Positions 13,459-57,034 of a stretch of DNA of 64,000 nucleotides are shown one piece after another. The notes under the pieces were generated by a model. It saw nothing but the letters and a program-made list of their open reading frames with translations. It did not search any database and had not been told where the DNA came from. The DNA lies in assembly GCF_030408635.1 (NCBI RefSeq), contig NZ_CP047198.1, positions 558,001 to 622,000 on the forward strand. The letters run 5' to 3'. The DNA is from Corynebacterium coyleae (GTDB lineage Bacteria; Actinomycetota; Actinomycetes; Mycobacteriales; Mycobacteriaceae). Made by a program: the position numbers and the translations under genes. Position 1 is the stretch's first letter. Each line of letters starts with the position of its first letter.

Positions 13459-13492
13459 ATCGTCTAGTTGCATTTCGGAGCTGCTAGACGAT
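13459..13492. repeat. Palindromic repeat R1 (first half of doublet 1)
   Basis: Inverted arms ATCGTCTAG and CTAGACGAT around 16 nt. Flanking bases extend the stem to 16 positions with one mismatch (13452-13467 with 13484-13499). Exactly 60 nt separate its end from the start of R2. The spacer itself has internal complementarity (GCATTT…AAATGC and TGATAT…ATATCA). Confidence 0.88.
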
Positions 13493-13549
13493 CCGCATTT
13501 TATTGATATCTGTTTTCAATATCACCTGGGGAAATGCATCCGGGGACTC

Positions 13550-13564
13550 GTGATCGTCTAGTGC
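13550..13564. repeat. Target-site duplication, left, and left arm of palindrome R2
   Basis: The 15-mer GTGATCGTCTAGTGC directly precedes the insertion sequence and is repeated exactly at 15223-15237. It contains the left arm (13553-13561) of the second palindrome of doublet 1, so the element inserted into the palindrome. Confidence 0.9.
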
Positions 13565-15222
13565 TGTCATGTCTCGTGACTTATTGGACAAGGAGTCCAG
13601 TCACTTATTGGACACGATGTCCACACACTTTTTGGACAGCGTGCGGGTGGAATGGGCGGATGGCTATTTCATCGCACAAGCGCAGAAAGATCGCGGATTT
13701 TGATCCGGTCCGCGACGGCAAGACCATCACGCAGTTTTGTAAAGAAGAACAGATCTCACGCCAGACGTTTCACAACGTGAAAAACCGCATCACCGAACGT
13801 GGACGGTCCGGCATTCTGCCGGATAGCACTGCTCCGAAAAACCCTGCCCGCAAATACACAGACGCTGACTACCAGGCTGTCATTAACGCACGGTTCGATC
13901 TGCAAGAGCAGGGATTGGACTGCGGCCCGTTGTCGATCTACTACCGCTTGTACGACGCAGTTGGCCCAGAGTGCACTCCATCGCGCACAACAATTGCGAC
14001 CTGGCTGCACAACGCTGGTTTGGTCGATGTCAACGCGCGTAAGCGTCCACGCAGTTCTTATAAGCGTTTCGCCCGCGATTTTGTCTGCGAGTTGTGGCAG
14101 ATCGACGCTTTGGTCTACCGCCTGTTCGATGTTGACCACACCCAGGCCACGATCTATCAGGTCATCGATGACGCCAGCAGATTCGACGTAGGAACGAAAG
14201 CGTTTATGCGTCCTGAAAACGGCGAAGACGCTCGCACCACGTTGGCGGCAGCCTTTGATAACTACCGCAAACCACAAGAACTCTTATCGGACAACAGTGA
14301 AGCATTTGCCACCTACCACCGTGGGCGTTTGTCAGCAACGGAAATATGGCTGGCTGAACAAGGCGTCGTCGCGATCGCTGGGTTTGCTCCCACAACGCAA
14401 GGCAAAGACGAACGCTCCCATCGCACCTTGGTGCAGTTTCTTGATGCGCGCACACCAACAACGTTTAACGAGTTGCAAGCAGCGATCGTGGCCTACCGTG
14501 AGGTGTACAACACTCACCGGAGGCATCAAAGCCTGCTTGTCGGCAAAATGCACATCACACCGCAACAGGCTTGGGAGACGTTCCCGCAGGCTGAATCACC
14601 AACAGATCCGCTGGATCCTGAAGTGATATGGCAACGCGTTGTTGACTACAACCTTGCCAACAACCCGCATGCACAGCCGAAGCCTGCGGATGTAAAAGAT
14701 CCTGGGGAAGCTGCCACTTCGCCCAGGTTCAAAACCGTTCCTGTAATCACCACACCAGGTGCATCACACACGGATATAACCAGCATAGACGAGCTGGAGA
14801 AACTCGAATACGAATACATCGATGTGCCACTGGAGCTTCGCATCAACCGTCACGGTGTCGTTGCCGTTTGCGGCTACTCGCTCTATGTCGGTCTTCGCTT
14901 TGCAGACAGAGATATCTTTAGTCACGTCACCGTCGATAATGTCGCCGAGTTCTACACCGCTCACGACGGAGAATTCCTGTTTAGTTTTCCGTTGCCGATC
15001 AAGCTCAAACACCGCCCCACCGGTGGACAGATCAACATCAACCACGTCGAAGGTATGACGCACCGTCGTCCACCGAAGCTACGTCATGACCTATCCAAAC
15101 CCAGACCAAAGCGAGCCAAACCCACCCGGAAAAACTACGGCTAGGACGTGTCCAGAAAGTGACCGGACTCCTTGTCCAATAAGTGACTGGACTCCTTGTC
15201 CAAAAACTCTATGGACATAACA
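13565..15222 (+). mobile_element. IS481-type insertion sequence, complete
   Basis: A 1658-bp element bounded by TG…CA ends, 74-bp imperfect terminal inverted repeats (13565-13638 and 15149-15222; about 60 of 74 positions agree by my count) and a 15-bp exact target duplication. Each end contains three copies of a 24-bp unit with TTATTGGACA, presumably transposase-binding sites; the middle unit is identical at both ends. One intact transposase gene lies within. Intact ends, gene and duplication suggest a recent, potentially active insertion. Confidence 0.92.
13660..15144 (+). CDS. IS481-family DDE transposase
   Basis: A 494-residue transposase. An N-terminal helix-turn-helix region (TITQFCKEEQISRQTFHNVKN) precedes a retroviral-integrase-like core with Asp149 (WQIDAL), Asp211 (LLSDNSEAF) and Glu251 (GKDERSHRTL), the expected DDE triad. 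The C-terminal 130 residues carry a beta-rich domain common in long IS481-type transposases. I chose ATG 13660; the open frame upstream reads through the terminal repeat. No frameshift is seen, so the enzyme is probably functional. Confidence 0.92.
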   Translation: MAISSHKRRKIADFDPVRDGKTITQFCKEEQISRQTFHNVKNRITERGRSGILPDSTAPKNPARKYTDADYQAVINARFDLQEQGLDCGPLSIYYRLYDAVGPECTPSRTTIATWLHNAGLVDVNARKRPRSSYKRFARDFVCELWQIDALVYRLFDVDHTQATIYQVIDDASRFDVGTKAFMRPENGEDARTTLAAAFDNYRKPQELLSDNSEAFATYHRGRLSATEIWLAEQGVVAIAGFAPTTQGKDERSHRTLVQFLDARTPTTFNELQAAIVAYREVYNTHRRHQSLLVGKMHITPQQAWETFPQAESPTDPLDPEVIWQRVVDYNLANNPHAQPKPADVKDPGEAATSPRFKTVPVITTPGASHTDITSIDELEKLEYEYIDVPLELRINRHGVVAVCGYSLYVGLRFADRDIFSHVTVDNVAEFYTAHDGEFLFSFPLPIKLKHRPTGGQININHVEGMTHRRPPKLRHDLSKPRPKRAKPTRKNYG

Positions 15223-15237
15223 GTGATCGTCTAGTGC
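15223..15237. repeat. Target-site duplication, right
   Basis: Exact copy of the 15-mer at 13550-13564, directly after the CA end of the insertion sequence. Fifteen base pairs is within the range known for IS481-type elements. Confidence 0.9.
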
Positions 15238-15260
15238 CCCCTCACAGGCAGCTAGACGAT
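15226..15260. repeat. Palindromic repeat R2 (second half of doublet 1, split by the IS)
   Basis: Arms ATCGTCTAG (15226-15234) and CTAGACGAT (15252-15260) around 17 nt; the inner TGCC/GGCA extends the stem. Removing the insertion sequence and one 15-mer restores a 35-nt palindrome exactly 60 nt after R1. Confidence 0.88.
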
Positions 15261-15273
15261 CTGCTTTTGACGC

Positions 15274-15672
15274 CTACCCCAGCAGCTCCTTTACGCTAGC
15301 CGGGTCGGCATCGGAGAGCATTTGGCGGCAGCGGTCGTACTCGGCGTCGTCGCCAATCGCCTTGGAGGTCAGCGCGAGCATCGCGATGGCTTTGAGCACA
15401 CCGCGGTTCGGCTCGTGGGACGCCGGGACCGGACCCCAGCCCTTCCAACCGTTGGCGCGCAGGCGGTCCAGGGAGCGGTGGTAGCCGGTGCGGGCGTAGG
15501 CGTAAGCGATGAGTTTGTCGCCGGATTCGAGTTCACGCTCGGCGCGGGTGGCCCAGACGGCGGGGGAGTCGGGGTGGGCGAGCGCGGTGTCGTCGGCAAG
15601 GAGGTCCTTGCCGGTGGCCGGGTCTGCGGGAAGTTCGATGGGCTTCGGTGCGAGCATGTCGTTGATTTCCAT
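15274..15672 (-). CDS. DUF3151 family protein
   Basis: A 132-residue cytoplasmic protein beginning MEINDMLAPKP. The central block AYAYARTGYHRSLDRLRANGWKGWGPVPASHEPNRG is the hallmark of the actinobacterial DUF3151 family, whose function is unknown. The ATG at 15672 is chosen because upstream frame content (Arg/His-rich) looks non-coding. It lies 26 bp downstream of maf on the same strand and probably belongs to the accD-accE-maf operon. Confidence 0.85.
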   Translation of the reverse strand: MEINDMLAPKPIELPADPATGKDLLADDTALAHPDSPAVWATRAERELESGDKLIAYAYARTGYHRSLDRLRANGWKGWGPVPASHEPNRGVLKAIAMLALTSKAIGDDAEYDRCRQMLSDADPASVKELLG

Positions 15673-15698
15673 GATGGCCAGGCTACCCACAACGTGCG

Positions 15699-16292
15699 CT
15701 ACGCGGTCCAGAAGTCGGAGGCGTCCAGTCCGAATCGGTACAGGCAGCGGCGAAGCAGCGGCATGGATAGGCCGATGACGCTGGTGGGGTCGCCGTCGAT
15801 GGAGTCGATGAACCAGGAGCCGAGCGCCTCGAGTGTGAACGCGCCGGCGCACTCCAGTGGCTGACCGGAGCGGGCGTAGGCCTCGATGTCGGCATCGGAC
15901 ACGTCACCGAAGCGGATTGCGGTGGTGATGGTATCGACGACCCATTCGCCGCCGAACCACACCGCATGCCCGGTGAGCAGGTGGGCTTCCTTGCCGCGCT
16001 GTGCTTTCCACCGGCGGATTGTTTCGTCGACGGTGTGGGGTTTGCCCAGCAAGGTGTCGTCGAGAAGCAGCATGCTGTCGCAGCCAACAACAACGTCGTC
16101 GGGGAATTCCGCAATTGCGGTCTCGGCTTTTGCGCGGGCGAGGGTGGCCACGGTGGTGGCGGGTGGGACGTCGCCAAGTACAGCGATCACCGCATCCTCA
16201 TCGATGTGCGCGGGGCGCAGCACCGGGGTGACGCCGCCTTGTTCGAGCAGCATGCGTCGCGACGGCGACTGCGACGCCAACACCAACCGCAT
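15699..16292 (-). CDS. maf: Maf-like nucleotide pyrophosphatase
   Basis: A 197-residue protein of the Maf/HAM1 superfamily, which hydrolyses non-canonical or methylated nucleoside triphosphates and is linked to septum control. Visible: N-terminal LVLASQSPSRRMLL, the catalytic VVGCDSMLLL, GKP, and the C-terminal IDGDPTSVIGLSMPLL. Length is normal. Its ATG overlaps the stop of accE by one base (TAATG), showing translational coupling within the acyl-CoA carboxylase operon, as in related actinobacteria. Confidence 0.92.
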   Translation of the reverse strand: MRLVLASQSPSRRMLLEQGGVTPVLRPAHIDEDAVIAVLGDVPPATTVATLARAKAETAIAEFPDDVVVGCDSMLLLDDTLLGKPHTVDETIRRWKAQRGKEAHLLTGHAVWFGGEWVVDTITTAIRFGDVSDADIEAYARSGQPLECAGAFTLEALGSWFIDSIDGDPTSVIGLSMPLLRRCLYRFGLDASDFWTA

Positions 16293-16477
16293 TAGAAATA
16301 CGCCGCCGAATCGAACGCGTGCGGATTAAACGCAGTCGCCGGGTGGGACGCACCCCACATGTTGGCGTCCGGCTGCACCCCGGACTGCTTGCGTTCGCGC
16401 TGGAGCTGCAGCAACACCTCGGTCAGCGCCTGCAGTTCCGCCTCGGTGGGGTTGCCTTTAACTACCTGAATATCCAC
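16292..16477 (-). CDS. accE: Acyl-CoA carboxylase epsilon subunit
   Basis: A 61-residue protein beginning MDIQVVKGNPTEAELQALTEVL, the conserved opening of actinobacterial AccE/PccE subunits, and ending with an aromatic-rich tail typical of the family. It bridges alpha (AccBC) and beta (AccD) subunits and stimulates carboxylase activity. It lies 10 bp after the beta-subunit gene and overlaps maf by one base. Confidence 0.88.
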   Translation of the reverse strand: MDIQVVKGNPTEAELQALTEVLLQLQRERKQSGVQPDANMWGASHPATAFNPHAFDSAAYF

Positions 16478-16487
16478 GTCAGCCTCC

Positions 16488-18011
16488 TTACAGCGGGATG
16501 TTGCCGTGCTTCTTCTGGGCCGGGTAGGTCACCTTGCGCTCAAGCAGGCGCAGACCCTCGAGGACGCGGGCGCGGGTGGTGGACGGTTCGATGACGGCGT
16601 CGACCATTCCGCGCTCAGTGGCCACGTACGGGTTGAGGTTGTCCGCGGCGTACTGCTCCTCGTCGGTGCCGATCGCCTCGGCGGCGGTGGTGGCGTCTGC
16701 CAGTGCGATCTGTGCGGTCGGCCAAGCGAACACCAGGTCCGCGCCCAGGCCCTTCGAGCCGAGCAGCGCGTACGACGGACCGAACGCCTTGCGGGTGACC
16801 ACGGTGATCGTGCCCACCTGGGCCTCTGCAAACGCGTAGGCGAGTGCGGCGGCGGCTGCGGCGGACCCGGAGCGCTCCTCCTCGACCGACGGGAGGAAGC
16901 CGGGGGAGTCCACGAACTGCACGATCGGCAGGTTAAACGCGTCGCAGGTGCGGATGAAGCGTGCGGCCTTGCGTGCGGCGTCGCGGGTCAGGCAGCCAGC
17001 CAAAACACTCGGCTGCGTTGCGACGACACCAACCGCGCGCCCGCCCACGTGCGCAAAACCGGTGACCACGGAACCTGCGAAGCCAGCGGAGAGTTCCAGA
17101 ACGTCGCCGTCGGTGACCGAAGCCAGGATGTCGGTGACGTCGTAGGGCTGGTTGTCGTCGTCAGGTATGAATGTGTCGAGGTCGGCCTCCGTCGCAGGGG
17201 CCTCGGCGTTGTCGGCACCCAGCGGGGAAGCGGCCTTGTTATTCAGCGGCAGGTAGCTGACCACGGTACGGGCCAGGTCCACCGCTTCCGTATCGGTCGC
17301 GGCGACGAGCTGCGCCAGGCCAGTCTCCGCGGCGTGGACGGCGGTGCCGCCAAGCTCATCGGAAGTCGTTTCAGCGCCGGAGACCTTGGTCACGATGTCC
17401 GCCGTGGTCACGTGCAGGGACGCGCCCTCGGCCATCACGGTGATATCCGCAAGCGGGACCGTGGTGGCAGCGAGCGAGGCGACATCCCCGGCCACGACCG
17501 CGATCTGCGGAATCAAACCCGACGCACGGGTTGCCGCACGCAGGATCTGTGCCTGCATATGCGCGGTGACAATGCCTTCCTTCCAACGCGGGCCAGTCGA
17601 GTCATAAATACCGATCAGCGGCACGCCGGTCTTGGTTGCCAAGTCGTAGATCTTGAGGATCTTCTCGCAGTACACCTCACCGACCTGGCCGTCGAAAATC
17701 GTCGGGTCTTGGGAGAAGACGCAGACACGACGGCCGTCGATCAGCCCGTAGCCCGTAATCACACCGTCGGTGGAAGGCTTGGACTTGTCCATCTTGTATG
17801 CCTCGACGCGGTGCTTGGCCAGGGCGTCGGTCTCCACGAACGTGCCGTCGTCGAGAAGCGAAAGCACGCGCTCGCGGGCAGTGGTGCCACCAGCCTCATG
17901 GACAGCATCGATCGCGTCCTGACCGACCGGCGCCTGCGCCTCATCCAGGCGATTGCGCAGATCCTGAATGCGGCCAGCCGTCGTGGTCATGTCGGGTTTA
18001 GATGAACTCAT
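16488..18011 (-). CDS. accD2: Acyl-CoA carboxylase beta subunit, AccD2-like, divergent active site
   Basis: A 507-residue carboxyltransferase-fold protein. The N-terminus (KPDMTTTAGRIQDLRNRLDEAQAP as seen around residues 5-28) and the KKHGNIPL end resemble C. glutamicum DtsR2/AccD2 as I recall it. The usual active-site glycine loops are altered: where family members have GAGAR, GACAGG and GGAYCVMGS, this protein has DSTGPR (about 138-142), GDVASL (about 175-180) and GPSYALLGS. It may therefore act as a structural partner in a hetero-oligomer with another AccD, as in the mycolate carboxylase. ATG 18011 is chosen. The neighbouring dtsR1 gene known from C. glutamicum is absent. Confidence 0.82.
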   Translation of the reverse strand: MSSSKPDMTTTAGRIQDLRNRLDEAQAPVGQDAIDAVHEAGGTTARERVLSLLDDGTFVETDALAKHRVEAYKMDKSKPSTDGVITGYGLIDGRRVCVFSQDPTIFDGQVGEVYCEKILKIYDLATKTGVPLIGIYDSTGPRWKEGIVTAHMQAQILRAATRASGLIPQIAVVAGDVASLAATTVPLADITVMAEGASLHVTTADIVTKVSGAETTSDELGGTAVHAAETGLAQLVAATDTEAVDLARTVVSYLPLNNKAASPLGADNAEAPATEADLDTFIPDDDNQPYDVTDILASVTDGDVLELSAGFAGSVVTGFAHVGGRAVGVVATQPSVLAGCLTRDAARKAARFIRTCDAFNLPIVQFVDSPGFLPSVEEERSGSAAAAAALAYAFAEAQVGTITVVTRKAFGPSYALLGSKGLGADLVFAWPTAQIALADATTAAEAIGTDEEQYAADNLNPYVATERGMVDAVIEPSTTRARVLEGLRLLERKVTYPAQKKHGNIPL

Positions 18012-18161
18012 AACGCCCCAGTCTAGATTCCGAGATTGTTCCTGCCACATTGCCTATCGACGGCGCGTCGCCGGACGTTTCGCAGCGTAGGTGTAACCGG
18101 GGCGCGTGGTTGGGGTGTGCTTCCGGGGGCTTGCGAGGGCGAGGGTGAGGAAACGGGAACA

Positions 18162-19409
18162 CTAATTGCTGAGAAGCGCGAGAGGCATAACGATCACACC
18201 GTCACGTCGTACATAAGCCTGTTTCCCCGTGGTAAGGACCATGAGGTTGGTGACGCGGTCTGGAATACGTTCGCGCAACCATAGGAGGTGTCGGACGTCG
18301 GCGTCGTCGATATGAGGCTTCAGCTTGACCTCCACCCCGAGTACCTCCCGTTCAGCGCCCTCAATGATGAAGTCGACTTCTCGCTCTCCCGCGTTCGACC
18401 TGAGGTGGTAGACCTTGGCCCTGTTTGCTTGGGCCAGTACACGCAGGGTGAGCGCACACAGAGACTCGAAAAGCGGCCCGAACATGTGCGCAGCACGGTT
18501 ACTCAAGAGGCCAGATGGGGATATTCCAAGAAACCTGGCAGCGAGTGCAGGGTCAGCCAAGTGATGCTTTGGGCCTTGCTGCAGGCGTTTGAACTCATTG
18601 TTTTCTGGAACCCAACCAGGAACTGGATCAAGCAGCCAAATCTTTGCAAGGTGCTCACGATATGCGAGTGTGGTCTTCTGATTTGGTTGTTCAGTCTGAC
18701 CGCCGGTGGTCGCATCAAGCAGCCTGGAGTAAGCGGTGGTAGTGGCTGTTGCAGCAGCGTATGCGCGCAACCAGCTTCGAAGCGATTCCGGCCGTCTCAC
18801 CTCGTATCCTGCATCGGGAATATCACGATCGATGATTCGCTCAATGTAGGAATCCAGCAGTGTGACCTGGATGAGCGGATTCGCGGAAGCGATGGCGGGG
18901 AATCCGCTTCCGGTGATGAGGCGTGCGTAGTCGTCGAGCCTACAGTCAGAAGAACCAGATACATCGGTGTTTCCGGCCAAGATCCCGGCGAAGCTGCATG
19001 TGGGGTTGGCGACGCCGCGTTCATGAACTGCCATTGGCCGCATTCTCAATGAGACGATGCGTCCGGCCCCAGAGTGTGAGCCCTTCGGGTCAACTGGGGT
19101 AGCAGAGCCGGTGAGGAGGAAGCGCCCGGGCCCAGCGCCCTGATCTACTTGACGGCGGACAGAATCCCAGATCTGGGGAAGATGCTGCCACTCATCTAGT
19201 AGAAGAGTTCCATCTGGTGCGGAGGAGAGCGAGAAATCTGCCTCGGCAACGTTCCTCATATCGGGATCGTCGAGATACCAAGCAGCGTCGGCTCGGCGCC
19301 TTGCAGTGTCGGTCTTGCCCACACCTTTTGGTCCGTCAATTGCGATTGCGGGCAGGTGAGGCATAAGGAGATCAAGCTCGTCATCAAGCGTGCGCCGAAG
19401 ATATGACAT
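18162..19409 (-). CDS. AAA ATPase with DUF4143 domain
   Basis: A 415-residue protein. Walker A GPKGVGKT lies near residue 26, followed by a Walker B-like GTLLLDEW and the sensor LLTGSAT, typical of the AAA_14/DUF4143 group. The C-terminal part has VDFIIEGAEREVLGVEVK, a PD-(D/E)xK-like pattern found in the DUF4143 domain. Function is unknown; relatives often occur in genomic islands and are sometimes linked to defence or regulation. It sits between accD2 and birA, where dtsR1 lies in C. glutamicum. Codon use looks less GC-biased than its neighbours. The ATG at 19409 has no evident ribosome site; iterated repeats lie upstream. Confidence 0.85.
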   Translation of the reverse strand: MSYLRRTLDDELDLLMPHLPAIAIDGPKGVGKTDTARRRADAAWYLDDPDMRNVAEADFSLSSAPDGTLLLDEWQHLPQIWDSVRRQVDQGAGPGRFLLTGSATPVDPKGSHSGAGRIVSLRMRPMAVHERGVANPTCSFAGILAGNTDVSGSSDCRLDDYARLITGSGFPAIASANPLIQVTLLDSYIERIIDRDIPDAGYEVRRPESLRSWLRAYAAATATTTAYSRLLDATTGGQTEQPNQKTTLAYREHLAKIWLLDPVPGWVPENNEFKRLQQGPKHHLADPALAARFLGISPSGLLSNRAAHMFGPLFESLCALTLRVLAQANRAKVYHLRSNAGEREVDFIIEGAEREVLGVEVKLKPHIDDADVRHLLWLRERIPDRVTNLMVLTTGKQAYVRRDGVIVMPLALLSN

Positions 19410-19436
19410 ACGGGTAGTGTACAGCATGAATAGTTC

Positions 19437-19500
19437 CTACTACCCGTTTTTCAGAAGGACTACTACCGGATTTTCAGGACTCTTACTACCCGATTTTCAG
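19437..19500. repeat. Three 18-bp direct repeats at 23-bp period upstream of the DUF4143 gene
   Basis: Units at 19437-19454, 19460-19477 and 19483-19500 share the pattern ACTACCCGATTTTCAG with one or two changes. Starts are exactly 23 bp apart. A reverse half-unit CGGGTAGTG lies at 19411-19419 next to the gene start, and a degenerate fourth unit near 19528. This looks like an operator array for a regulator, possibly autoregulatory. Confidence 0.8.
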
Positions 19501-19629
19501 AAATGGGATGCCTCTCCGGAGAAGCGTGCTACCCGACGTTTTTCGACGACGGGCCGTGGTTCGCGAGGGCCCGCGAGCGCGCCCCCACCTTCCCACCCCG
19601 ACACCCCGCCGCCTACTACGCTCGTGACC

Positions 19630-20361
19630 ATGAGTGTCAAGGACGTGCAGGCAATTCAGGACAAGGTGGCCGAATACTGGACTGACGTGCGGTGGGTCGA
19701 GTCCACCGGGTCGACGAACGCGGACCTGCTCAAGGACGGTTCCGCGCCGGGCACGGTGCTCATCGCAGACGAGCAAACCGCTGGCAAGGGCCGCTTGGGC
19801 CGCCATTGGGTGTCGCCGAAGGGCTCGCAGTTGGCCATGAGCATGGTCATCGACGTGACCGATACCCCGCCGCCGTTCGGGTTGCTGTCTATCGCGCCGG
19901 GTGTGGCGGTGACGGATGTGGTGCCGCAGGCGCAGTTGAAGTGGCCGAACGATGTGCAGATTTGCGGCAAGAAGATCGCTGGCATCCTCTCGGCGTTGGA
20001 TATGCCGCGGGTGATTGTGGGCATCGGCATTAACGTTGCTATGCGTCCGGAGGATCTGCCTGTGGAGACCGCCACCGCCTTGAACCTTGAGGGCATTGAT
20101 GTGGATTTCGACGAGTTCACCGCCGACATCCTCGCCGCGATGGGTCGTCGTTTGAAGCAGTGGCAGGAGCGCGACCCGCAGTTGTTGGAGGATTACCGCA
20201 AGGTCTGTTCGACCATCGGCCAGCAGGTTCGCCTGGAGTTACGCGAGGGGGAGGAGACGGTGCGCGGCCTGGTCACGGGCATTAATGATGAGGGCGAGGT
20301 GCTTATCGACGACACCCCGTTCTCCGTCGGCGATGTCCACCACCTCCGCCCGACCCAGTAG
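19630..20361 (+). CDS. birA: Biotin-[acetyl-CoA-carboxylase] ligase, monofunctional
   Basis: A 243-residue enzyme that activates biotin as biotinyl-AMP and attaches it to the biotinyl domains of AccBC and Pyc. Motifs: STGSTNADLL, the biotin/ATP loop GKGRLGRHW, LKWPNDV and KKIAGIL. No N-terminal helix-turn-helix is present, so it cannot act as the biotin repressor known from E. coli. ATG 19630 is chosen; the frame stays open far upstream through the repeat region. The position beside the carboxylase genes fits its role. Confidence 0.92.
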   Translation: MSVKDVQAIQDKVAEYWTDVRWVESTGSTNADLLKDGSAPGTVLIADEQTAGKGRLGRHWVSPKGSQLAMSMVIDVTDTPPPFGLLSIAPGVAVTDVVPQAQLKWPNDVQICGKKIAGILSALDMPRVIVGIGINVAMRPEDLPVETATALNLEGIDVDFDEFTADILAAMGRRLKQWQERDPQLLEDYRKVCSTIGQQVRLELREGEETVRGLVTGINDEGEVLIDDTPFSVGDVHHLRPTQ

Positions 20362-20383
20362 GCGTGCAGTAACCTAGCCGGTC

Positions 20384-20839
20384 ATGGCTAACAAAGCGGT
20401 GTTTCGTATCGGCGAGGACGAGGTGGTCCTCGCCGATGTGTGTGCGCCGCTTTCTTCGTTGACGTTCCCGTTGCTGGAGTTGGTGGCGCTCACCGGTGTT
20501 GCCTGGATGGCGATTGGGTGGATGGATGTGACCCCACATATCGATCCGGGGATGCGCAACATTGTGGTGCTGATCTGGGCGATTCTTGCGCTGTGGCGGT
20601 TTGTGTTGCCGTTGGTGTCGTCGCGACGCAGGCGCTTCGTGGTCACCGACAAGCGCGTCCTGGCGCGGGGGCGGCGTGGCGCGGTGGATTCGATCCCGCT
20701 GCGCCAGATCCATTCGGTGCGCCGGGAGCGCGGGGGCTTGTGGATCGCGCTGTACGGCTATGCCCAGCCGGTGCGGTTTGACCGGGTGGGCAAGACACGC
20801 GCGGTGGAGAAGGTGCTGCAGTCGCAGCTGCGCGGCTAG
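20384..20839 (+). CDS. PH-domain (bPH2) membrane protein
   Basis: A 151-residue protein with two hydrophobic helices (about 28-46 and 57-78) followed by a basic bacterial PH-type domain: RFVVTDKRVLARGRRGAVDSIPLRQIHSVRRERG. It lies 22 bp after birA, likely in the same operon. Related corynebacterial genes occupy the same place next to birA. Function is unknown. Confidence 0.8.
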   Translation: MANKAVFRIGEDEVVLADVCAPLSSLTFPLLELVALTGVAWMAIGWMDVTPHIDPGMRNIVVLIWAILALWRFVLPLVSSRRRRFVVTDKRVLARGRRGAVDSIPLRQIHSVRRERGGLWIALYGYAQPVRFDRVGKTRAVEKVLQSQLRG

Positions 20840-21564: not shown

Positions 21565-21604
21565 GGCTGCGATGCTAGTCGGTTGGCCGACTACAGTGTG
21601 GGGC

Positions 21605-22786: not shown

Positions 22787-22790
22787 GCAG

Positions 22791-23754: not shown

Positions 23755-23803
23755 GCCATGCAACACGTGCCGGGCGGCGTCGGCCAGCACGGCGGCGCCG
23801 GGA

Positions 23804-24127: not shown

Positions 24128-24200
24128 GCCGGATTCCCTTCATCAATGCGGGTAGTGTCCGGCACAGCTTAGCCCAGGAGTGCAGGGGTAACAGTCATGA

Positions 24201-46065: not shown

Positions 46066-46077
46066 CGCTTGCGCTGT

Positions 46078-46222: not shown

Positions 46223-48790
<2,568 letters not shown>

Positions 48791-48840
48791 AACCGCCGCT
48801 GAACCCACTGTTTGGGGCCACTGTTTGGGCCAGTGCGGTC

Positions 48841-49356: not shown

Positions 49357-49509
49357 GTGGGAATCCTCCGTCACGGGAGGGGGTGGGCGCGGCGCGGGGT
49401 AGGTATCATTGTTCACGATTGGCGCAATGAAATAAAGAGTGTGCGCACTAAAATACGCATCACGTACGCGAAATACGCAGCTAACGAAAGCTAACGAAAG
49501 AAGGCCGAA

Positions 49510-49923
49510 GTGCAGGGTTTGATCATCGACTACGCAGGTGTGCTGGACACGGGCGCTGAAGACCAGAGCCGCTGGAAGACCCTTATCGAGGAAGCCAAGA
49601 AGAAGGACGTCTCCGTGGCCATCCTGTCCAACGAGGCAGCTGAGGGCGAGATTGCGGACGCGATCCGCGAGTGGGAGTTCAAGGGCGTTGTCGACGCGGT
49701 TGTGCTCTCCGGCGAGATCGGTGTGGAAAAACCGGAGCGTGCAGCGTTCCAGGCGGCAGCCGACGCGATCGGCCTGGATATGAACGAGTGCGTGATGATC
49801 GACGATGACATCATGAACATCCGCGCCGCAGTGGAATACAACCTCATTGGCATCCTGCACACCGCGCTGGACCGCACTGCGGTAGAGATCCAGTCCCTGT
49901 TCGACATTGAGGGCGAGTTCTAG
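49510..49923 (+). CDS. HAD-like protein with altered motif I
   Basis: A 137-residue HAD-fold protein. Motif I reads DYAGVL (nucleophile Asp7), motif II ILSN, motif III KPERAAFQ and motif IV MIDDD. The Asp normally two residues after the nucleophile is Ala, as in phosphonatase-type HADs, so it may not be a common phosphatase. There is almost no cap domain. GTG 49510 has AGAAGG upstream. Its stop overlaps the next gene's start (TAGTG). Confidence 0.8.
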   Translation: MQGLIIDYAGVLDTGAEDQSRWKTLIEEAKKKDVSVAILSNEAAEGEIADAIREWEFKGVVDAVVLSGEIGVEKPERAAFQAAADAIGLDMNECVMIDDDIMNIRAAVEYNLIGILHTALDRTAVEIQSLFDIEGEF

Positions 49924-50417
49924 TGCGCGTCTACATCCCGGCAACCTTTGGCATGCTGCAAGCGCTGCAGGACAACGGTCTGTTGCATGCGCGCAGCGGG
50001 TGGGGTTTTTCTGCGACGAAGGCGTTGCAGGAATTCTTCACCTCGGGTGATCTCGAAGAGATCGAAGATGTGGCGTTCGATGACGCAGCGTTGGCGTCGC
50101 TACGCCTGCTCGCCATTGGGGACGAGGAGCGCTTCCCGCACCGCCGAGTGGTCATCTCCGTGGACGTGGACGCGACCGAAGCACCCGATATGGGCGAGTC
50201 TGTGGTGAAACTGTCCGGCCCGGTGAATCTTGAGGACGTCGCGGCGATCCACGTGGACATCAAGGAATCCGAAGAAGCCACCGCGAAGGCCATCGAGGTG
50301 GTCGATGCCGCGGATCTTGGCGACGAAGACGCGGAGCTGACCGTCGGCGACGCCCAAGACAACTACATGGCGTTCTATCACCCAGACGAGTTAGCGTTCC
50401 TCCTCGAGCTGCTTTAA
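49923..50417 (+). CDS. DUF6912-like conserved protein
   Basis: A 164-residue acidic protein starting VRVYIPATFGMLQALQDNG, a recognisable opening of a conserved actinobacterial family of unknown function. Asp/Glu-rich throughout. Translationally coupled to the HAD-like gene. Its 3' end overlaps the convergent rsgA 3' end by 27 nt. Confidence 0.72.
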   Translation: MRVYIPATFGMLQALQDNGLLHARSGWGFSATKALQEFFTSGDLEEIEDVAFDDAALASLRLLAIGDEERFPHRRVVISVDVDATEAPDMGESVVKLSGPVNLEDVAAIHVDIKESEEATAKAIEVVDAADLGDEDAELTVGDAQDNYMAFYHPDELAFLLELL

Positions 50418-51416
50418 CTCCCACTCGTTATTGCTGTGTAGAGCCTCCAGCAGGTGGCGCACAGCCAGCGCGCGGCGCCCGATAGGGGATTCGGCGTCGA
50501 GCGTGTCCCAGGCACACTCCGGGTCCGCAGGCGGACCCAAGTGGGTGCAGCCGCGGGAGCAGCCTTCGGCGGCCTCGGCGAGATCGGGGAAGACCTGCAC
50601 GATTTGTTCCGGGGCGACGTGTGCGAGGCCGAAGGAGCGGATACCGGGGGTGTCGATAATCCAGCCACCGCCGGGTACCTCCAACGCCACGGACTGGGTG
50701 GAGGTGTGGCGGCCCTTGCCCACGCCGGAGACCTCGCCAGTTTCGCGGTCCGCGTCCGGGACGATGCGGTTGACCAGGGTGGATTTGCCCACTCCGGAAT
50801 GGCCGATCAGCGCAGAAACGCGGTCGTGGATGTGTGTGAGCAGTTCCGCGATGTCGTCGTCGACGCCGGTGCGCAGCACCTCCACACCAAGGTCAGCGAG
50901 TTCACGCTCGAAATCGGTAGGGTCGGCCAAATCAGACTTGGTCACGCACACCACCGGGGTCACGCCGCCGACAAAGGCGGCAACGAGGGCACGCTCCACA
51001 AAACCGGTGCGCGGTGGGGGATCGGCGGCGGCAACCACGATGAGCAACAGCTCAGCGTTGGCGACGATGATGCGCTCGTACGGGTCCGTATCGTCAGCCG
51101 TGCGGCGCAGGACAGAGGAACGCTCCTCGCGCTTCACAATGCGCGCCAGCGTGTCCTTCGCGCCGGAGGTGTCACCGACGACGCCGACACGGTCGCCGAC
51201 CTCGATCGAGGTGCGCTTTAAGTCCCGGGCGCGGGTGCATTGCAGGCGCGTGGCGTCGTCGTCAAGCACGACGCCCCAACGCCCACGATCCTTAGCCACG
51301 ACCAAACCGAACTTGGCATTATCGTGCGACGGGCGGTTCTTCGAGCGTGGCCGTGAGCCCTTGCCGGGGCGGACGCGGACGTCGGATTCGTCGTAATCGG
51401 AAAACTTGCGGCGCAT
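50391..51416 (-). CDS. rsgA: Ribosome small-subunit GTPase RsgA
   Basis: A 341-residue circularly permuted GTPase that checks late 30S maturation. Order of motifs: G4 TKSDL, then G1 GHSGVGKSTL, G3 DTPGI, and the zinc-binding C-terminal CSRGCTHLGPPADPEC. An N-terminal OB-fold precedes. ATG 51416 overlaps the aroA stop (TAATG), so it is coupled to aroA, as in related genomes. Confidence 0.93.
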   Translation of the reverse strand: MRRKFSDYDESDVRVRPGKGSRPRSKNRPSHDNAKFGLVVAKDRGRWGVVLDDDATRLQCTRARDLKRTSIEVGDRVGVVGDTSGAKDTLARIVKREERSSVLRRTADDTDPYERIIVANAELLLIVVAAADPPPRTGFVERALVAAFVGGVTPVVCVTKSDLADPTDFERELADLGVEVLRTGVDDDIAELLTHIHDRVSALIGHSGVGKSTLVNRIVPDADRETGEVSGVGKGRHTSTQSVALEVPGGGWIIDTPGIRSFGLAHVAPEQIVQVFPDLAEAAEGCSRGCTHLGPPADPECAWDTLDAESPIGRRALAVRHLLEALHSNNEWELKQLEEER

Positions 51417-52687
51417 TACTTGGAAACCATCTCCAACCACATGTCCTCAAACCCAGGAAGCGTCTTCGCGGTGGTTGCAATGTTTTCCACCTGGACGCCC
51501 TCCACAACCAGACCGATGATGGCGCCGGCGGTGGCCATGCGGTGATCGTCGTAGGAACGCCACGTCCCGCCATGCATCTCGTTGGGAGTGATACGCAGGC
51601 CGTCGCCGAGTTCCTCGCAGTTGCCGCCGACGTTGTTGATCTCGTTGGTCAGCGCCGCCAGGCGATCCGTCTCGTGGCCGCGCAGGTGCGCAATGCCAGT
51701 TAGCTCGCTCGGGGTGGAGGCGCACGCCGCGATGGCGGCGACGGTGGGGGCCAGCTCGCCGATATCGCTCATGTCGAGTCGAATGCCCTTTAGCGTGCCA
51801 GGCTTCGGGCCGCGCACGCGCAGGGTCTGGGTGGAGCCGTCGGCGATGAGTTCGACCTCGCAGCCCATGCGCTCCAAGACGGTACGGATCACTGCACCCG
51901 GCTGGGTGGTGCGCAGTGGCCAGTTCGGGATGCGCACCTCGCCGCCAGTGACAGCTGCCGCGGCGAGGAAGGGTGCTGCGTTGGACAGGTCGGGCTCGAT
52001 CACCCAGTTAGTGCCGCGGATCGGCTGCGGGTCAACGTCCCAGGTGTCACGGGTACCGGTGACCTTCACGCCAGCCTCTGCGAGCATGGCCACCGTCATC
52101 TCAATGTGCGGCATCGACGGCAACATGCCACCCGTGTGGCGGATGGACACGCCACGCTCGAACCGGGGCGCAGACAGAAGCAGGCCCGATACGAACTGGG
52201 AGGAACCAGAAGCGTCAATCTCCACCGGGCCGCCGTCAGCCTTGCCGGTGCCGTGGACGGTAAACGGCATCCCGTCACCCGCCACGGACACGCCGAGGGT
52301 GCGAAGGGCGTCGAGGATAACCGCGATGGGGCGGTTGCGGGCGTGAGGGTCGCCGTCGAAAAGCACAGGCCCCTGAGCAAACGCCGCAACCGGCGGCACA
52401 AACCGCATCACGGTGCCAGCAAGACCGCAATCAACCTCCGCGCCGCGCAACTCGCCCGGGGTCACACGGATGACGTCGCCGTCGTGCTCGAAGCCAGTGC
52501 CCATGGACGCCAGAGCGGCCTCCATAAGATCCGTATCGCGCGAGCGCAGCGCCCCAGTCATCGTCGACGGACCAGCGGCAAGTGCCGCCAGCACGTAGGC
52601 GCGGTTAGTCATGGACTTTGACCCCGGCACCCGCTGCGTGTGGGTGATCGGGGCCGGATGGAACGGTGCGGGCCACATGTTCGTCAT
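51416..52687 (-). CDS. aroA: 3-phosphoshikimate 1-carboxyvinyltransferase (EPSP synthase)
   Basis: A protein of about 423 residues joining shikimate-3-phosphate and PEP in aromatic amino acid synthesis. Signature [12 protein letters not shown] near the N-terminus, [27 protein letters not shown], and the late [12 protein letters not shown]. Several nearby ATGs (52711, 52696, 52687) are possible; none has a good ribosome site. It is divergent from the HMCES-like gene and coupled to rsgA. Confidence 0.93.
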
Positions 52688-52709
52688 GAACGTCATAATA
52701 ATGGAGCGC

Positions 52710-53366
52710 ATGTGCGGACGATTCGTTCTTTTCACTACTGGCGACGAGCTCCTCTCCGAGGTAGCCACCCTGCCCGGCATCAACCATGTCGAAGCGCCCG
52801 ACGGCACCCCGCCGTCGCGCTACAACATCGCGCCGACAAACCAGGTGCCGCTCATCCGGGTCGCAGAGCAGACTGCGCGTATCGACGCCGCCCGCTGGGG
52901 CCTCCTCCCAACCTGGAAGAAAGACGACACCGGCATGCCTCTGTTCAACGCACGCGGAGAGACGGTGGCGGAGAAGCCCTCGTTCCGCAGCGCGTTCAAA
53001 GCGCGGCGCGGGCTGATGGTGCTCGACGGCTACTACGAGTGGAAGCAAACCGAATCCGGCAAGCAGCCCTACTACGTGCGCCCCGCAGAGGGCTTGCTGT
53101 ACGCGGCGGCACTGTGGGAGACCGGGCTGGACCGGCTATCCACCACCATGATCACCACCGACGCGACCGACAACATGGCCTGGCTCCACCACCGCCTACC
53201 GCTCTTTCTGCGTGACGATGAAATCCGCCAGTGGGTCGACGGCACCCCAGAGGAAGCACTAGAACTCGTGCACCCCTCGCGCGTGGCCGACACGTTGCAG
53301 TGGAACGAGGCCGCAAAGGAAGTAGGCAACGTGCGCAACGACTACGCGGAGTTGATCTCGGGCTAG
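52710..53366 (+). CDS. SRAP/HMCES (YedK)-family abasic-site protein
   Basis: A 218-residue protein that crosslinks to abasic sites in single-stranded DNA through Cys2. The start MCGRF places the catalytic cysteine immediately after Met, which decides the start at ATG 52710 over upstream ATGs. Conserved [29 protein letters not shown] and a late WLHHRLP (active-site His) are seen. The DNA-repair role comes from established family data. Confidence 0.92.
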
Positions 53367-53373
53367 TCCAGGG

Positions 53374-53838
53374 CTATTCAGTCCCGATAGGCGCGAACTT
53401 CGCGTTGGTCAGCTCCGCCAGGTCGGTAGGCGACAGCGCAATAGAAAGGCCCCGTTGGCCGGCGGAGACGGTGATGGTTTCGAGGTCGGCGACGGAGTCG
53501 TCGATAAGCGTAGGCATGCGCTTGGTGGTGCCCAGCGGGGAGATCCCGCCCACGACATAGCCGGTCGCACGCTGCGCCTGAGCAGGATCGGTCATCTCCG
53601 CACGCTTCCAACCCAGCGCTTTCGCCGCCGCCTTGAGCGAAAGGTGGCCGGCGACGGGCACGCAACAGATCGCCATGTCGCGTTCGTGATGGATCACCAA
53701 AGTCTTCAGCACCGTGTGGGGGTCACGGCCCAACTCAGCAGCAGAATGTGCGCCGAAATGATCCTTGCTCGGGGTGTATTCGAGCACCTCATGAGGGGTT
53801 TGAGAAAGGGCGCTCAGTGCGCGAGTCTTAGCAGCCAT
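53374..53838 (-). CDS. ybaK: Cys-tRNA(Pro) deacylase YbaK/EbsC
   Basis: A 154-residue editing-domain protein that hydrolyses misacylated Cys-tRNA(Pro). Visible: VLKTLVIHHE, VAGHLSLKAAAKALG, the GYVVGGISPLG loop with the key glycines, and a late ITVSAGQRGLSIALSPTDL. It is convergent with the HMCES-like gene and divergent from sigH. Confidence 0.9.
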   Translation of the reverse strand: MAAKTRALSALSQTPHEVLEYTPSKDHFGAHSAAELGRDPHTVLKTLVIHHERDMAICCVPVAGHLSLKAAAKALGWKRAEMTDPAQAQRATGYVVGGISPLGTTKRMPTLIDDSVADLETITVSAGQRGLSIALSPTDLAELTNAKFAPIGTE

Positions 53839-53872
53839 GGGGCGATTTTAGCGCTGACCTACAATAGCGAGC

Positions 53873-54493
53873 ATGCCCGAAACCGAGCTTGATCAAGAAG
53901 CAAAGGCACGCTTCGCCGAAGAAGCCATGCCGCTGCTCGACCAACTCTACGGCGGAGCCCTGCGCATGACCCGCAACCCGCAAGACGCCGAAGACCTGGT
54001 GCAAGAGACCTACCTCAAGGCGTACAAAAACTTCGACAGCTTCACGCCCGGTACCAATCTCAAGGCGTGGCTGTACCGGATCATGACCAACACCTACATC
54101 AACTCGTACCGCAAGAAACAGCGCCGGCCGCTGGAAACCTCCGCGGACGAAGTGACGGATTACCAGTTGTACTCCTCGAGCTCGCACGACTCGACGGGAC
54201 TGGAATCCGCCGAGGTTGAAGCGCTCAAGGCAATGCCAAACTCGCGGATCTCCGAGGCGCTCAACGCGTTGAACGAGGACTACCGCATGGTGGTCTACTA
54301 CGCCGACGTTGAAGGGCTGGCGTACAAGGAAATCGCCGAAGTGCTGGACATCCCCATGGGCACTGTCATGAGCCGACTGCACCGTGGAAGAAAACAACTG
54401 CGCGCCATGTTGAAAGACGTGGCGAAGGAACGAGGCATTGGCCTCGACCACGCGGACATGCAGGACACCGACACTGCGGCGAAGGAGAAGTAA
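53873..54493 (+). CDS. sigH: ECF sigma factor SigH
   Basis: A 206-residue sigma factor of heat and thiol-oxidative stress. Region 2: [19 protein letters not shown]; region 4: [41 protein letters not shown]. It is coupled to the anti-sigma gene by TAATG overlap, the classic sigH-rshA pair. It likely controls thioredoxin, proteolysis and mycothiol genes. Confidence 0.94.
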
Positions 54494-54744
54494 TGGCTAC
54501 GGGACACGGATGCGAAGCGACATACCGCCTGCTGTGCGAACTTTTCGACGAAGAAACTTCCCCACAGCGCCGCGAGGAAATCACCTCCGAGATCGCGCAA
54601 TGTCCGGAGTGTCGCAGTATTGCCGAGTCTGAGCGGGCCGTGCGTGCGATCGTGCGGGATTGCTGCAAACCGACAAAGGCTCCTGAGCCGCTGCGCGAGC
54701 GCATCATCACCACCATCTCCTACACCGAAGTCACGTGGCACTAG
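54493..54744 (+). CDS. rshA: Mycothiol-system anti-sigma factor RshA
   Basis: An 83-residue zinc anti-sigma factor. Ligand-type cysteines and histidine are seen in HGCEATYRLLC and CPECRS, forming the redox switch that releases SigH. A further CC pair lies near residue 57. Its start overlaps the sigH stop. Confidence 0.9.
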   Translation: MATGHGCEATYRLLCELFDEETSPQRREEITSEIAQCPECRSIAESERAVRAIVRDCCKPTKAPEPLRERIITTISYTEVTWH

Positions 54745-54800
54745 GGCGCTTTTAGGGGGTTTTAGGGGGAGTTCGGGAGCTGGTTGTTGCGGCCTTTCTC

Positions 54801-54835
54801 ATCGTCTAGCCGGGCTTGTGATGTTGCTAGACGAT
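54801..54835. repeat. Palindromic repeat R3 (doublet 2)
   Basis: Arms ATCGTCTAG (54801-54809) and CTAGACGAT (54827-54835) around 17 nt. It begins 56 bp after the rshA stop. Exactly 60 nt separate it from R4. Confidence 0.9.
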
Positions 54836-54895
54836 CTCGTTTCGGCCTCTGTGTTTGCCCTGGTGGTGTTGGGGTTGTTTGTCGTTATGGGGCTG

Positions 54896-54929
54896 ATCGT
54901 CTAGCTGGTGTTTCGGGGTGCTAGACGAT
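54896..54929. repeat. Palindromic repeat R4 (doublet 2)
   Basis: Arms ATCGTCTAG (54896-54904) and CTAGACGAT (54921-54929) around 16 nt. Together with R3 it forms a 129-bp element in the same orientation as doublet 3, judged by loop lengths 17 then 16. Confidence 0.9.
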
Positions 54930-55500
54930 GAGCGTTGGGGTGGTGGACTGGTGTGTTCGTGGGGTTGAAACACGGTGTTTTCGTGTCTTGAGGCCTGTTA
55001 TGGCGTGTGCGCTCGGAAAACGGGGGTAATTTGCGGGGGTAAGCAGGTGGTGCAGATTGCTGAACAATCCGCACGTCACACCCATTTCGAGCCGTTTTCA
55101 CAGTCGTTGAACAATCCTTCCGACCGTTTTAGGGCTGTTTTGAAGTGCTGTTCCGGCATTTCCCCAGGTCGCGATCCGGCAGGGCGGGTGTTGGCTGAAA
55201 ACACCCTTAAACCGCATACTATGCATGTATAAAGATTGTTCAACGAAGTGCACCCAAGGCAAATCAGATCGTTCAACAACCCTTCGCGTCAGTGGTGTTT
55301 GCGGGTTGGATTGGTGAACAATCCGGACGTTAACCAGGGTGAAAGCGTTGAACAATCCAGAAAAAACGTTGAACAATCCCGCCAAAAACTCGTAGCACCG
55401 GCACACGTTTTACCTGCGCATACAAACTGCATAACCTTGATTGTGTCAGGAAGAACAGGTCCTGATCAGCGAAACAAGAAATCACCAAGGAGCACCACCA
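54930..55500 (+). promoter_or_regulatory. Upstream region of the metalloprotease gene with seven 12-bp iterons
   Basis: About 570 bp without a credible gene. Seven copies of GTTGAACAATCC or close variants lie at 55059, 55106, 55313, 55347 and 55368 on the plus strand and at 55233 and 55266 on the minus strand (AGATTGTTCAAC, AGATCGTTCAAC). Three are exact and the rest differ by one or two bases. Some spacings recur (47, 33-34 and 21 bp). They are probably operators for a DNA-binding protein governing the downstream gene. TATAAA at about 55228 may belong to a promoter. Confidence 0.85.
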
Positions 55501-56841
55501 ATGCGAAACGCAATCCGCAACACCATCGCAGCAGCACTGACTGCCACCATGGCCATTGCCGGTATCACCCCCGCCAATGCGTGCGACGCTTGCGATGAGC
55601 AAGCATTGATCGCCCCGGTTGATTTCGGCGCTGGGCTCGACCTAGTTGACTCTGACGGCGACGGTCTTCCCGACGTATGGGAACAACACGGTGTCATCTT
55701 GTCTGACGGCACTGCAGTTCCCCTTCCCGGTTATGGGGCTGATGTGAATCGTCCGGATCTGTTTTTGCAACTGAACTGGATGGCGTCCGAATACCGCAGC
55801 CTTGGCTGCGACGACAATTACGTTGACGCTTGTGATTTCGCTGACAAGCGCAACCTTGGCCCATCGGCACAGATGCTGCAGGAGATGGTCGACCTGTTTA
55901 ACGACCACGGCATTAACCTGCACATCGACGCAGGCGAGTTGTTTACCAACATCCCCAACTACACCCCACAAGGCGGGGAAACCGTCGACTACAACCGCTA
56001 CTACTTCAAAGATGAAATCCAGGCGTACAAACTGCTCGACAACATCGACGAGTTCTTAGGTGAGCGTGACAACATCTTCCGCATCGGGGTTATCGGTGAT
56101 CAGATTGATCAAGGTAACTACGCCTCGGGTATTTCCTTGGTTGGCGATAACTCGCTTTTCATCGCCAATAACCGCCTGATGGGATCAGATGCAAAACTGC
56201 GCAACACCATCCTCCACGAGTTAGGCCACACTCTAGATCTTCGCCACTGGGGTGCCAACGACACCGTCGGTGACCTTATTAAGGGTGTTTCGCTTCCGAT
56301 GGCGCCGGAGTATGACTCGGTGATGAACTACCTGTACCAGTTTGGCAAGTTCAACTACTCGGAAAAGCCATACCTGCTTGAAACCCCCAACGGCAACGCA
56401 GTTGTCCCCGCCGACTGGGACGTACTGAAAATCAATACTCCGCGTATTGCTGCTGACAACCTTGAAATCGGTAACTTCAGTGCCATGGCAGGTGCCATCA
56501 TCGACAACAAACCAGAAGCACCCGCCAAGGAAGAAAACAAGGCAGAAGCACCCGCCGCCGACAAAGCAGACGACAAAGCAGAAGCACCAGCACAGGTCGA
56601 AGCAGAAGCAGAAGCCCCGGCCAAGGCTAATGACAAGGCTAACGACAAGGCCGAGGAGAAGGTACAAGACCAGGCAGACGCTGAGCAGGAAGCACCGGCC
56701 AAGGTGGACAACGCCAACAAGCAGGCAGACAACAACAAGCCTGCAGGAGCAGACGTCAACATCGCCGCCATCGTCGCCCCGATCGTCGCCCTGCTGGCCA
56801 TCGTCGGAATCGGCATCGGCTTCGCCAACATGATGCTCTAA
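55501..56841 (+). CDS. Secreted, membrane-anchored zinc metalloprotease-like protein
   Basis: A 446-residue protein with a signal peptide (ITPANAC), a calcium-binding-like stretch DSDGDGLPDVWEQHG near residue 43, and the zinc motif HELGHTLDLRH (HExxHxxxxxH, about residues 239-249) with MNYL about 40 residues later as a possible Met-turn, typical of metzincin-like peptidases. Residues about 345-420 are Ala/Glu/Lys/Pro-rich repeats forming a stalk, and the end has a membrane helix with a very short tail. AAGGAG lies 8 nt before ATG 55501. It lies between two palindrome doublets and interrupts the usual rshA-whcE neighbourhood, so it is probably accessory. Substrate unknown. Confidence 0.85.
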   Translation: MRNAIRNTIAAALTATMAIAGITPANACDACDEQALIAPVDFGAGLDLVDSDGDGLPDVWEQHGVILSDGTAVPLPGYGADVNRPDLFLQLNWMASEYRSLGCDDNYVDACDFADKRNLGPSAQMLQEMVDLFNDHGINLHIDAGELFTNIPNYTPQGGETVDYNRYYFKDEIQAYKLLDNIDEFLGERDNIFRIGVIGDQIDQGNYASGISLVGDNSLFIANNRLMGSDAKLRNTILHELGHTLDLRHWGANDTVGDLIKGVSLPMAPEYDSVMNYLYQFGKFNYSEKPYLLETPNGNAVVPADWDVLKINTPRIAADNLEIGNFSAMAGAIIDNKPEAPAKEENKAEAPAADKADDKAEAPAQVEAEAEAPAKANDKANDKAEEKVQDQADAEQEAPAKVDNANKQADNNKPAGADVNIAAIVAPIVALLAIVGIGIGFANMML

Positions 56842-56858
56842 CCAAACACCCAAACTAC

Positions 56859-56891
56859 AAAGAGTGTGCCCCAATGAGGGCACACTCTTTT
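56859..56891 (+). terminator. Terminator of the metalloprotease gene
   Basis: A perfect 13-bp stem (AAAGAGTGTGCCC at 56859-56871, GGGCACACTCTTT at 56878-56890) with a 6-nt loop, then T's. It is symmetric and could work in both directions. Confidence 0.88.
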
Positions 56892-56905
56892 CGTTGCTAC
56901 ACCTG

Positions 56906-56940
56906 ATCGTCTAGCACGACCACAAATACAGCTAGACGGT
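56906..56940. repeat. Palindromic repeat R5 (doublet 3)
   Basis: Arms ATCGTCTAG (56906-56914) and CTAGACGGT (56932-56940; one mismatch) around 17 nt. Spacer to R6 is exactly 60 nt. Confidence 0.88.
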
Positions 56941-57000
56941 CTCGAAACCGCCTTCACAAACCCCCAGGTGATAACGAACACCATGGTCAACACGGAGCTC

Positions 57001-57034
57001 ATCGTCTGGTTCCACAACCACCGAGCTAGACGAC
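57001..57034. repeat. Palindromic repeat R6 (doublet 3)
   Basis: Arms ATCGTCTGG (57001-57009) and CTAGACGAC (57026-57034), the most diverged copy, around 16 nt. The 60-nt spacer before it matches the reverse complement of the doublet-1 spacer around CCCCAGGTGATA at the same relative position. Confidence 0.8.

Follow-up and report, generated by a model that had tools for sequence, protein, structure and literature searches.

In the chromosome of Corynebacterium coyleae we found a family of paired palindromes, here called doublets, which we tentatively read, at somewhat less than even confidence, as selected bipartite duplex-DNA sites for a putative sequence-specific protein; we infer both this protein and its function. 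The stretch analysed, referred to as the window, comprises 64,000 nucleotides (positions 558001-622000 of a genome, G000, that consists of one contig of 2,508,772 bases). Each palindrome of a doublet is a dyad with strongly conserved 9-bp half-sites around an unconstrained centre, and the two dyads lie 94-95 bp apart from centre to centre, corresponding to nine helical turns. The conserved half-sites, the free centre, the turn-wise spacing and the random orientation relative to genes support a reading at the level of duplex DNA. The doublets are paired palindromic intergenic elements; this observation of a first-pass annotation is real, and the family is richer than it had noted.

The window has a GC content of 61% and contains three doublets, each built from a 35-nt palindrome, a spacer of exactly 60 nt and a 34-nt palindrome, giving a unit of 129 bp. 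Doublet 1 lies on the minus strand, with its second palindrome (34 nt, loop 16) at 13459-13492, its spacer at 13493-13552 (core TTTCCCCAGGTGATATTG at 13517-13534, minus strand) and its first palindrome, starting at 13553, interrupted by an insertion sequence (IS) at 13565-15222. Doublet 2, on the plus strand, has its first palindrome (35 nt, loop 17) at 54801-54835, its spacer at 54836-54895 with the core at 54854-54871, and its second palindrome (34 nt, loop 16) at 54896-54929. Doublet 3, also on the plus strand, is imperfect: the first palindrome at 56906-56940 (35 nt) has one arm mismatch, the spacer occupies 56941-57000 with the core at 56959-56976, and the second palindrome at 57001-57034 (34 nt) has two arm mismatches, one arm of the doublet ending in GACGGT and the second palindrome reading ATCGTCTGG...GACGAC. 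When the doublets are oriented by CCCCAGG, a loop of 17 precedes a loop of 16 in all three, so that the direction read earlier from the loop order holds, as do the palindrome coordinates, the pairing and the 60-nt gaps. The window has ten occurrences of the arm 9-mer ATCGTCTAG, where 0.27 would be expected, and none of 100 shuffles reached ten.

A covariance model built from nine doublets detected 20 doublets in the whole genome, two of them split by an IS, and one half. The claim that the palindromes occur only in pairs is true of the window and nearly so of the genome, where palindromes with exact 8-bp arms number 15: a lone one stands at 2,223 kb, and the other 14 are members of doublets, three of them in the two IS-split ones. 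With a second model, for which 45 doublets with various arm types were used, at a threshold of E 1e-5 and with the best 12 scored candidates per genome considered, 14 of 242 Corynebacterium genomes proved to carry the family (9 of 151 with the first model), and the copies listed per carrier range from 3 to 20. The C. coyleae genome was the sole match in family-wide samples (1 of 201 genomes, and 1 of 301 genomes from 31 genera), which were searched with stricter filters at which weak matches are lost. A blastn search of plasmid records with two doublets gave no match. A viral origin was rejected as well, the sole viral-contig locus with the exact pattern (L158) being a lone palindrome in AT-rich DNA.

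The geometry was measured by a script on 132 doublets, which found both palindromes in 114 and missed the first in 10 and the second in 12. Among the 114, the spacer is 60 nt long in 102, 61 in six, 63 in four, and 93 and 97 once each. The first loop (122 measured) is mostly 17 (105 cases); lengths of 26-27 occur seven times, 16 or 18 six times, 10-15 three times and 7 once. In the second loop (120 measured), 16 predominates (89 cases), followed by 26-27 (19), 10-15 (seven), 5-7 (four) and 17 (one). Several of the exceptions are mis-registered arms: the loop-10 cases that an earlier count of 91 doublets also covers read 16 there, and a loop of 5 accompanies the 97-nt spacer. Most loops thus cluster near 6, 16.5 and 27, in steps of about one helical turn, while the spacer stays at 60-61. 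Since the 27-bp loops belong mostly to TGC-type doublets, we estimate that the independent changes in length number perhaps five or six. As the earlier annotation had claimed, the spacers are related to one another, and they carry a conserved core, TTTYCCCAGKTSRTRWTG.

The arms themselves differ among doublets, with ATCGTCTAG, ATCTGCTAG, ATCGTATAG, ATGGTCTAG and GCGGTATAG as forms. Arm letters 4-6 are alike in both palindromes of 97 of the 114 doublets, against a mean of 46 and a maximum of 63 in 2,000 shuffles. Within palindromes, the arms covary: in 45 gap-free rows, both partners have changed in 25 of 32 pairs, against a mean of 20.2 in 500 shuffles, none of which reached 25; sliding the partner lowers the covariation, and the covariation score is 0.305 against 0.155. 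These rows were picked from 91 doublets for an exact length of 149 bp, and the counts therefore lean toward the standard geometry. Five loci (L097, L089, L149, L127 and L143) show by eye additional half-sites in direct orientation 17-18 bp outside a palindrome. A further arm type, GAGGGCTAG, occurs at the edge of the family in G372 (L209, L255). The gene next to the palindrome at L089:3855-4922 takes its stop codon from that palindrome (ATC GTC TAG).

The arms are conserved, and the inner loops are not. In eight of the 20 C. coyleae doublets, chosen as non-redundant and with standard loops, the arms are 91-95% identical and the core 82%, and the inner loops are 31-33% identical, compared with 33% expected from composition; the flanks reach 28%. 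Loops and flanks at chance level beside preserved arms indicate that the C. coyleae copies are old, or that the loops were never copied, and arms held around free loops suggest that the arms have a function. The suggestion that loops were inverted between sister species came from one suggestive pair and was unsupported.

The doublets are extragenic, in agreement with the intergenic location reported at first. Gene context was taken from our own codon-usage gene calls for 75 of the 91 doublets (15 associated with an IS or a gene module and one edge site were set aside): 40 lie between convergent, 29 between tandem and six between divergent genes. Among element-free gene pairs, 41 of 343 (12%) are convergent; the excess has a binomial p of 5e-18, computed as if the sites were independent, which they are not. 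Between tandem genes, the orientation of the doublet is random, 13 being the same as that of the genes and 16 opposite.

The loci are also concentrated towards the replication origin. In the seven genomes compared, the first 60% of the distance from dnaA to the terminus holds 64 of 65 listed loci, and the bias per genome has a one-sided Kolmogorov-Smirnov p of 0.001-0.018 and a V-test p of 0.0014-0.021. For this test nearby copies were merged by hand, which reduced C. coyleae from 20 to 15 loci, and multi-contig carriers and G078 (one contig, 77% complete) were excluded; the three doublets of G078 lie at 0.43, 0.47 and 0.57 of the way from dnaA to the terminus. In six single-contig genomes the contig begins at dnaA; in G060 the gene stands at 672 kb, and G060 would appear unbiased (p 0.44) if the contig start were taken as its origin. 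The five grouped loci of G060 are its own, and one of them is placed in the gap from dnaA to dnaN (both identified by reading).

From these features we suggest how the sites may work. A sequence-specific protein, probably a dimer or a pair of dimers, would bind each dyad from a single face of the helix, and one protein per arm type would occupy both dyads in register, nine turns apart. The two dyads could then be held together with or around the conserved core, perhaps with the help of a bending protein, and the resulting complexes would label the origin-proximal part of the chromosome, serving its organisation, its segregation or the timing of division, in the manner of SlmA, Noc and RefZ sites or of the E. 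coli BIME and RIP elements. The functional link is drawn by analogy. In the accounts available to us (PMC4726725, PMC6657595), SlmA, Noc and RefZ sites are likewise dispersed palindromes that are scarce near the terminus; they differ in being palindromes with known proteins, whereas the doublets are paired 34/35-bp dyads restricted to few species. Noc sites number about 70 and SlmA sites 24-52, both under-represented near the terminus (PMC4726725), and RefZ motifs have conserved positions with respect to oriC throughout Bacillus (PMC6657595).

Several observations weigh against a bound site. The strongest is the range of the family, since a core function of the chromosome would hardly be expected in 14 of 242 genomes only. 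Several arm types occur together in one genome, which would call for several binding specificities, and complementary changes in the arms may suit a hairpin as well as a duplex-DNA site. No cognate protein was met in searches that covered Y1_Tnp and the IS. In the origin analysis, the Rayleigh p is 0.0026-0.12 and exceeds 0.05 in three of the seven genomes, and these genomes, G060 apart, share loci and hence are not independent. Some doublets have also been lost and others interrupted by an IS, and a locus occupied in one species may be empty in a relative. Finally, two G060 doublets (L115 and L118) have spacers that are 90% identical, which points to possible recent copying; both have 61-nt spacers and GTCGTCTAG arms, and by eye their first loops agree at 16 of 17 positions and their right flanks are similar.

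This pair bears directly on the main rival explanation, that the doublets are non-autonomous mobile elements resembling miniature inverted-repeat transposable elements, REPINs or BIMEs, moved by an enzyme other than a RAYT and landing beside or replacing resident doublets, with most copies old. We consider this a serious possibility, little less likely than a bound site. The doublets are dispersed and multicopy, and, in addition to the G060 pair at two places, TGC-type spacers reach an identity of 0.85 within G038 and within G341, many sharing the start of the spacer; adjacent copies are present at 130 kb in C. coyleae. In the remaining genomes, spacer identity is at most 0.77 outside the repeated module of C. 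coyleae. The 12 closest C. coyleae pairs shown are all copies carried with this repeated gene module, the best pair below 0.75 reaches 0.68, and the loops are at chance identity, which argues against recent movement there. The proposal of a miniature mobile element therefore stands as far as a dispersed, directional family with one close pair in G060 goes, but the C. coyleae copies are not young. No autonomous copy was met.

The positions of the doublets in related species can be read on both sides of this question. Comparison of the flanking genes grouped the 132 doublets into 49 loci, of which 16 are common to at least two genomes; three C. haemomassiliense loci were left out as belonging to the same genome as G374, and four rows of the grouping (G025 L170, G375 L231:1989, G060 L117 and G060 L119) are out of register. 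The locus upstream of a glycerol kinase gene, named from its translation, has a doublet in 11 genomes. Among the first 91 doublets, orientation is alike in 94 of 108 orthologous pairs, contrary to what free movement would suggest. Of the same-orientation pairs, 64 of 94 have a different arm type at the shared locus; spacer identity is 0.57 for pairs of different type (unrelated doublets 0.53) and 0.69 for pairs of the same type (0.55). At loci 5, 6 and 8 some species have two doublets of unlike type where others have a single one, as might be expected if new copies landed beside old ones; the pattern also suggests that one of two doublets was lost.

Presence and absence among relatives was seen most directly behind a pyrophosphatase gene (named by reading), where C. 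coyleae and G038 share a doublet. In G375 the two neighbours are those of C. coyleae and enclose no doublet; the matches stand 154 bp apart there, compared with 280 bp in C. coyleae. By eye, the printed stretches of G016, G002, G374, G341, G372 and G049 showed none. No clean insertion boundary was obtained, the flanks at the pyrophosphatase locus being too diverged; the search for target duplications was by eye.

The likeness to REPINs noted at the outset extends to extragenic palindromes paired at a set distance, dispersed and with the doublet as the unit, as the consulted part of PMC3116915 describes for REPINs and REP doublets. It does not extend to membership. REPINs are tied to RAYTs (PMC3116915, as far as available), and the Y1_Tnp family (PF01797) occurs in five of the 242 genus genomes (G018, G061, G088, G092 and G046) and in 0 of the 14 carriers, among which G078 is 77% complete. 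We therefore rejected mobilisation by a RAYT; another enzyme could move the family, or could formerly have done so. The doublets further differ from REPINs in that about 20 copies at most were found in a genome, that the C. coyleae copies are old, that positions are common to several species, and that the loops step by about a helical turn. The anatomy of E. coli RIP elements includes an IHF site. The doublets resemble these BIME and RIP elements, within the consulted part of PMC1525189, in having two palindromes around a conserved inner stretch, a placement between convergent genes and insertions by IS; the sequences differ, and the origin-proximal bias belongs to the doublets.

A third explanation, that the doublets are recombination sites serving as joints for the insertion or exchange of gene modules, is improbable. 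It arises from the C. coyleae module flanks (a doublet with a leader on one side and a doublet on the other), which repeat at 130, 264 and 612 kb with 91-96% identity, and from related doublets at 912 and 2046-2049 kb. At 2046-2049 kb (L091), two module doublets lie between a DUF3073-like gene and purM (named by reading), with one doublet in G016, and at 130 kb the same outer genes in G016 again enclose a single doublet. However, the latter is of another type and in the opposite orientation, the grouped doublets have like flanks on both sides and no cargo in up to 11 genomes, and ordinary homologous recombination between repeats would be sufficient. At 54801-57034 in the window, a leader region containing GAACAATCC-type repeats and a secreted-protein gene with an HELGH motif (by eye) lie between doublets 2 and 3; the flanks recur elsewhere in the genome at 91-96% identity.

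Least probable of all, in our view, is a transcribed product, whether the RNA with two hairpins considered in the first-pass annotation, a bidirectional terminator or a very short reading frame. Compensatory arm changes and the placement between convergent genes would fit an RNA, and one-sided changes on the oriented strand favour G-T over A-C in the arms (18:10) and the inner loop (41:22). The outer pairs lean the opposite way (19:34), and the one-sided changes are not decisive. The random orientation between tandem genes and the loop lengths of about 6, 16-17 and 27 speak against an RNA. Rfam gave no match in window positions 54000-58000, and for seven other loci one weak match to a miRNA family, far below the cut-off and off the doublet. 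The pyrophosphatase locus already has, by eye, a hairpin with a T-run upstream of the doublet.

The idea of a reading frame came from the spacer, for which stop codons and entropies were counted in 72 doublets after removal of five G060 rows and near-duplicates. Stops in the antisense frame number 2 of 72 against 13.1 expected (standard deviation 2.7), or 10.3 (2.3) in shuffles within arm types, of which 0 of 500 are as low; the sense frame has 4 of 72 against 8.2 (2.4). Substitutions by codon phase are 36, 28 and 16 in 12 orthologous pairs (p 0.02), and the codon-phase entropies are 1.17, 1.21 and 1.08. Amino-acid similarity stays inside the range of column-shuffled spacers in all six frames. 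A coding spacer is not supported by the entropies and the amino-acid similarity, although coding in the antisense frame is conceivable; the rarity of antisense stops comes without other clear coding signs.

The insertion in doublet 1 is a separate matter. As first reported, the doublet 1 palindrome is split by an IS, which is of the IS481 type, 1,658 bp long, lies at 13565-15222 on the plus strand and has a 15-bp target duplication with CTAG (13550-13564 and 15223-15237). The portion of the first palindrome left of it, 13553-13564 (minus strand), falls within the first duplication copy, and the second copy together with the complete first palindrome (15226-15260, 35 nt, loop 17) spans 15223-15260 on the minus strand. 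The transposase reading frame at 13660-15144 (plus strand, 494 amino acids) matches Pfam rve_3, with rve and HTH_29 below their cut-offs, and is nearest to NCBIfam IS481, where it scores 170 of 224 bits and stays below the cut-off. This IS is an invader and not part of the doublet family. Its type is present in 31 of 242 Corynebacterium genomes; 5 of these are among the 14 carriers, and 26 among the remaining 228. Of 30 IS loci, 15 were examined: 11 have a 15-bp target duplication, one a doubtful 18-bp repeat with CTAG and three none; CTAG lies within nine of the 11 duplications, and three of these nine are in doublets, one by eye. CTAG is depleted fourfold in the window (57 against 226 expected), yet every ATCGTCTAG arm contains it, and a complete GTC-type doublet holds up to four. 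Since the IS goes by CTAG, a motif that the arms provide, its presence inside a palindrome is a matter apart from the family, and an IS that seeks doublets as such is unneeded, given its presence in the genomes with no detected doublet. In C. haemomassiliense, three IS copies lie in or against doublets, and at L131, L145, L115 and L133 ends resembling those of IS481-type elements adjoin doublets in other species (by eye).

We met no description of the family in the literature on it and its analogues, which we covered in part, and the sole lead is Cod-1 of C. diphtheriae. The genome of that species has a GC content near 53%, against 61% in the window. In the tabulated portion of PMC2267715, Cod-1 is a stem-loop family of 140 bp with 17(16) copies, marked I and with a structure score of +++; judged from the table description, it is a possible counterpart of the doublets. 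The doublets also share with the CGTC-tagged palindromic repeats of PMC3733652, as far as that text was available, a lack of a known transposase, and the ATCGTC arm happens to contain CGTC. Those repeats carry the tag at one end, whereas the doublets form a 35-60-34 unit and have other arm types without CGTC (PMC3733652, same portion). A word search of the available text of PMC3733652 found no corynebacteria.

Going beyond a bound site, the doublets might be the DNA half of an undescribed actinobacterial chromosome-marking system, in which a protein whose half-site specificity can change (GTC, TGC, GTA and other types) would bind the twin dyads, inform the cell of the position of the origin side of the chromosome and so stand in functionally for Noc or SlmA; we regard this wider idea as unlikely. 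In Corynebacterineae, no Noc homologue was recognised in the consulted part of a 2014 review (PMC3989709). If the sites are bound, a doublet used as bait DNA would provide a direct handle on a DNA-binding protein and on the way in which some corynebacteria, a group without a recognised Noc or SlmA, mark the origin half of their chromosome. If the doublets are instead mobile, they would constitute a REPIN-like family without a RAYT, in which the loci stay constant while the recognition sequence changes, and would offer a system for studying how palindromic repeats are maintained and replaced.

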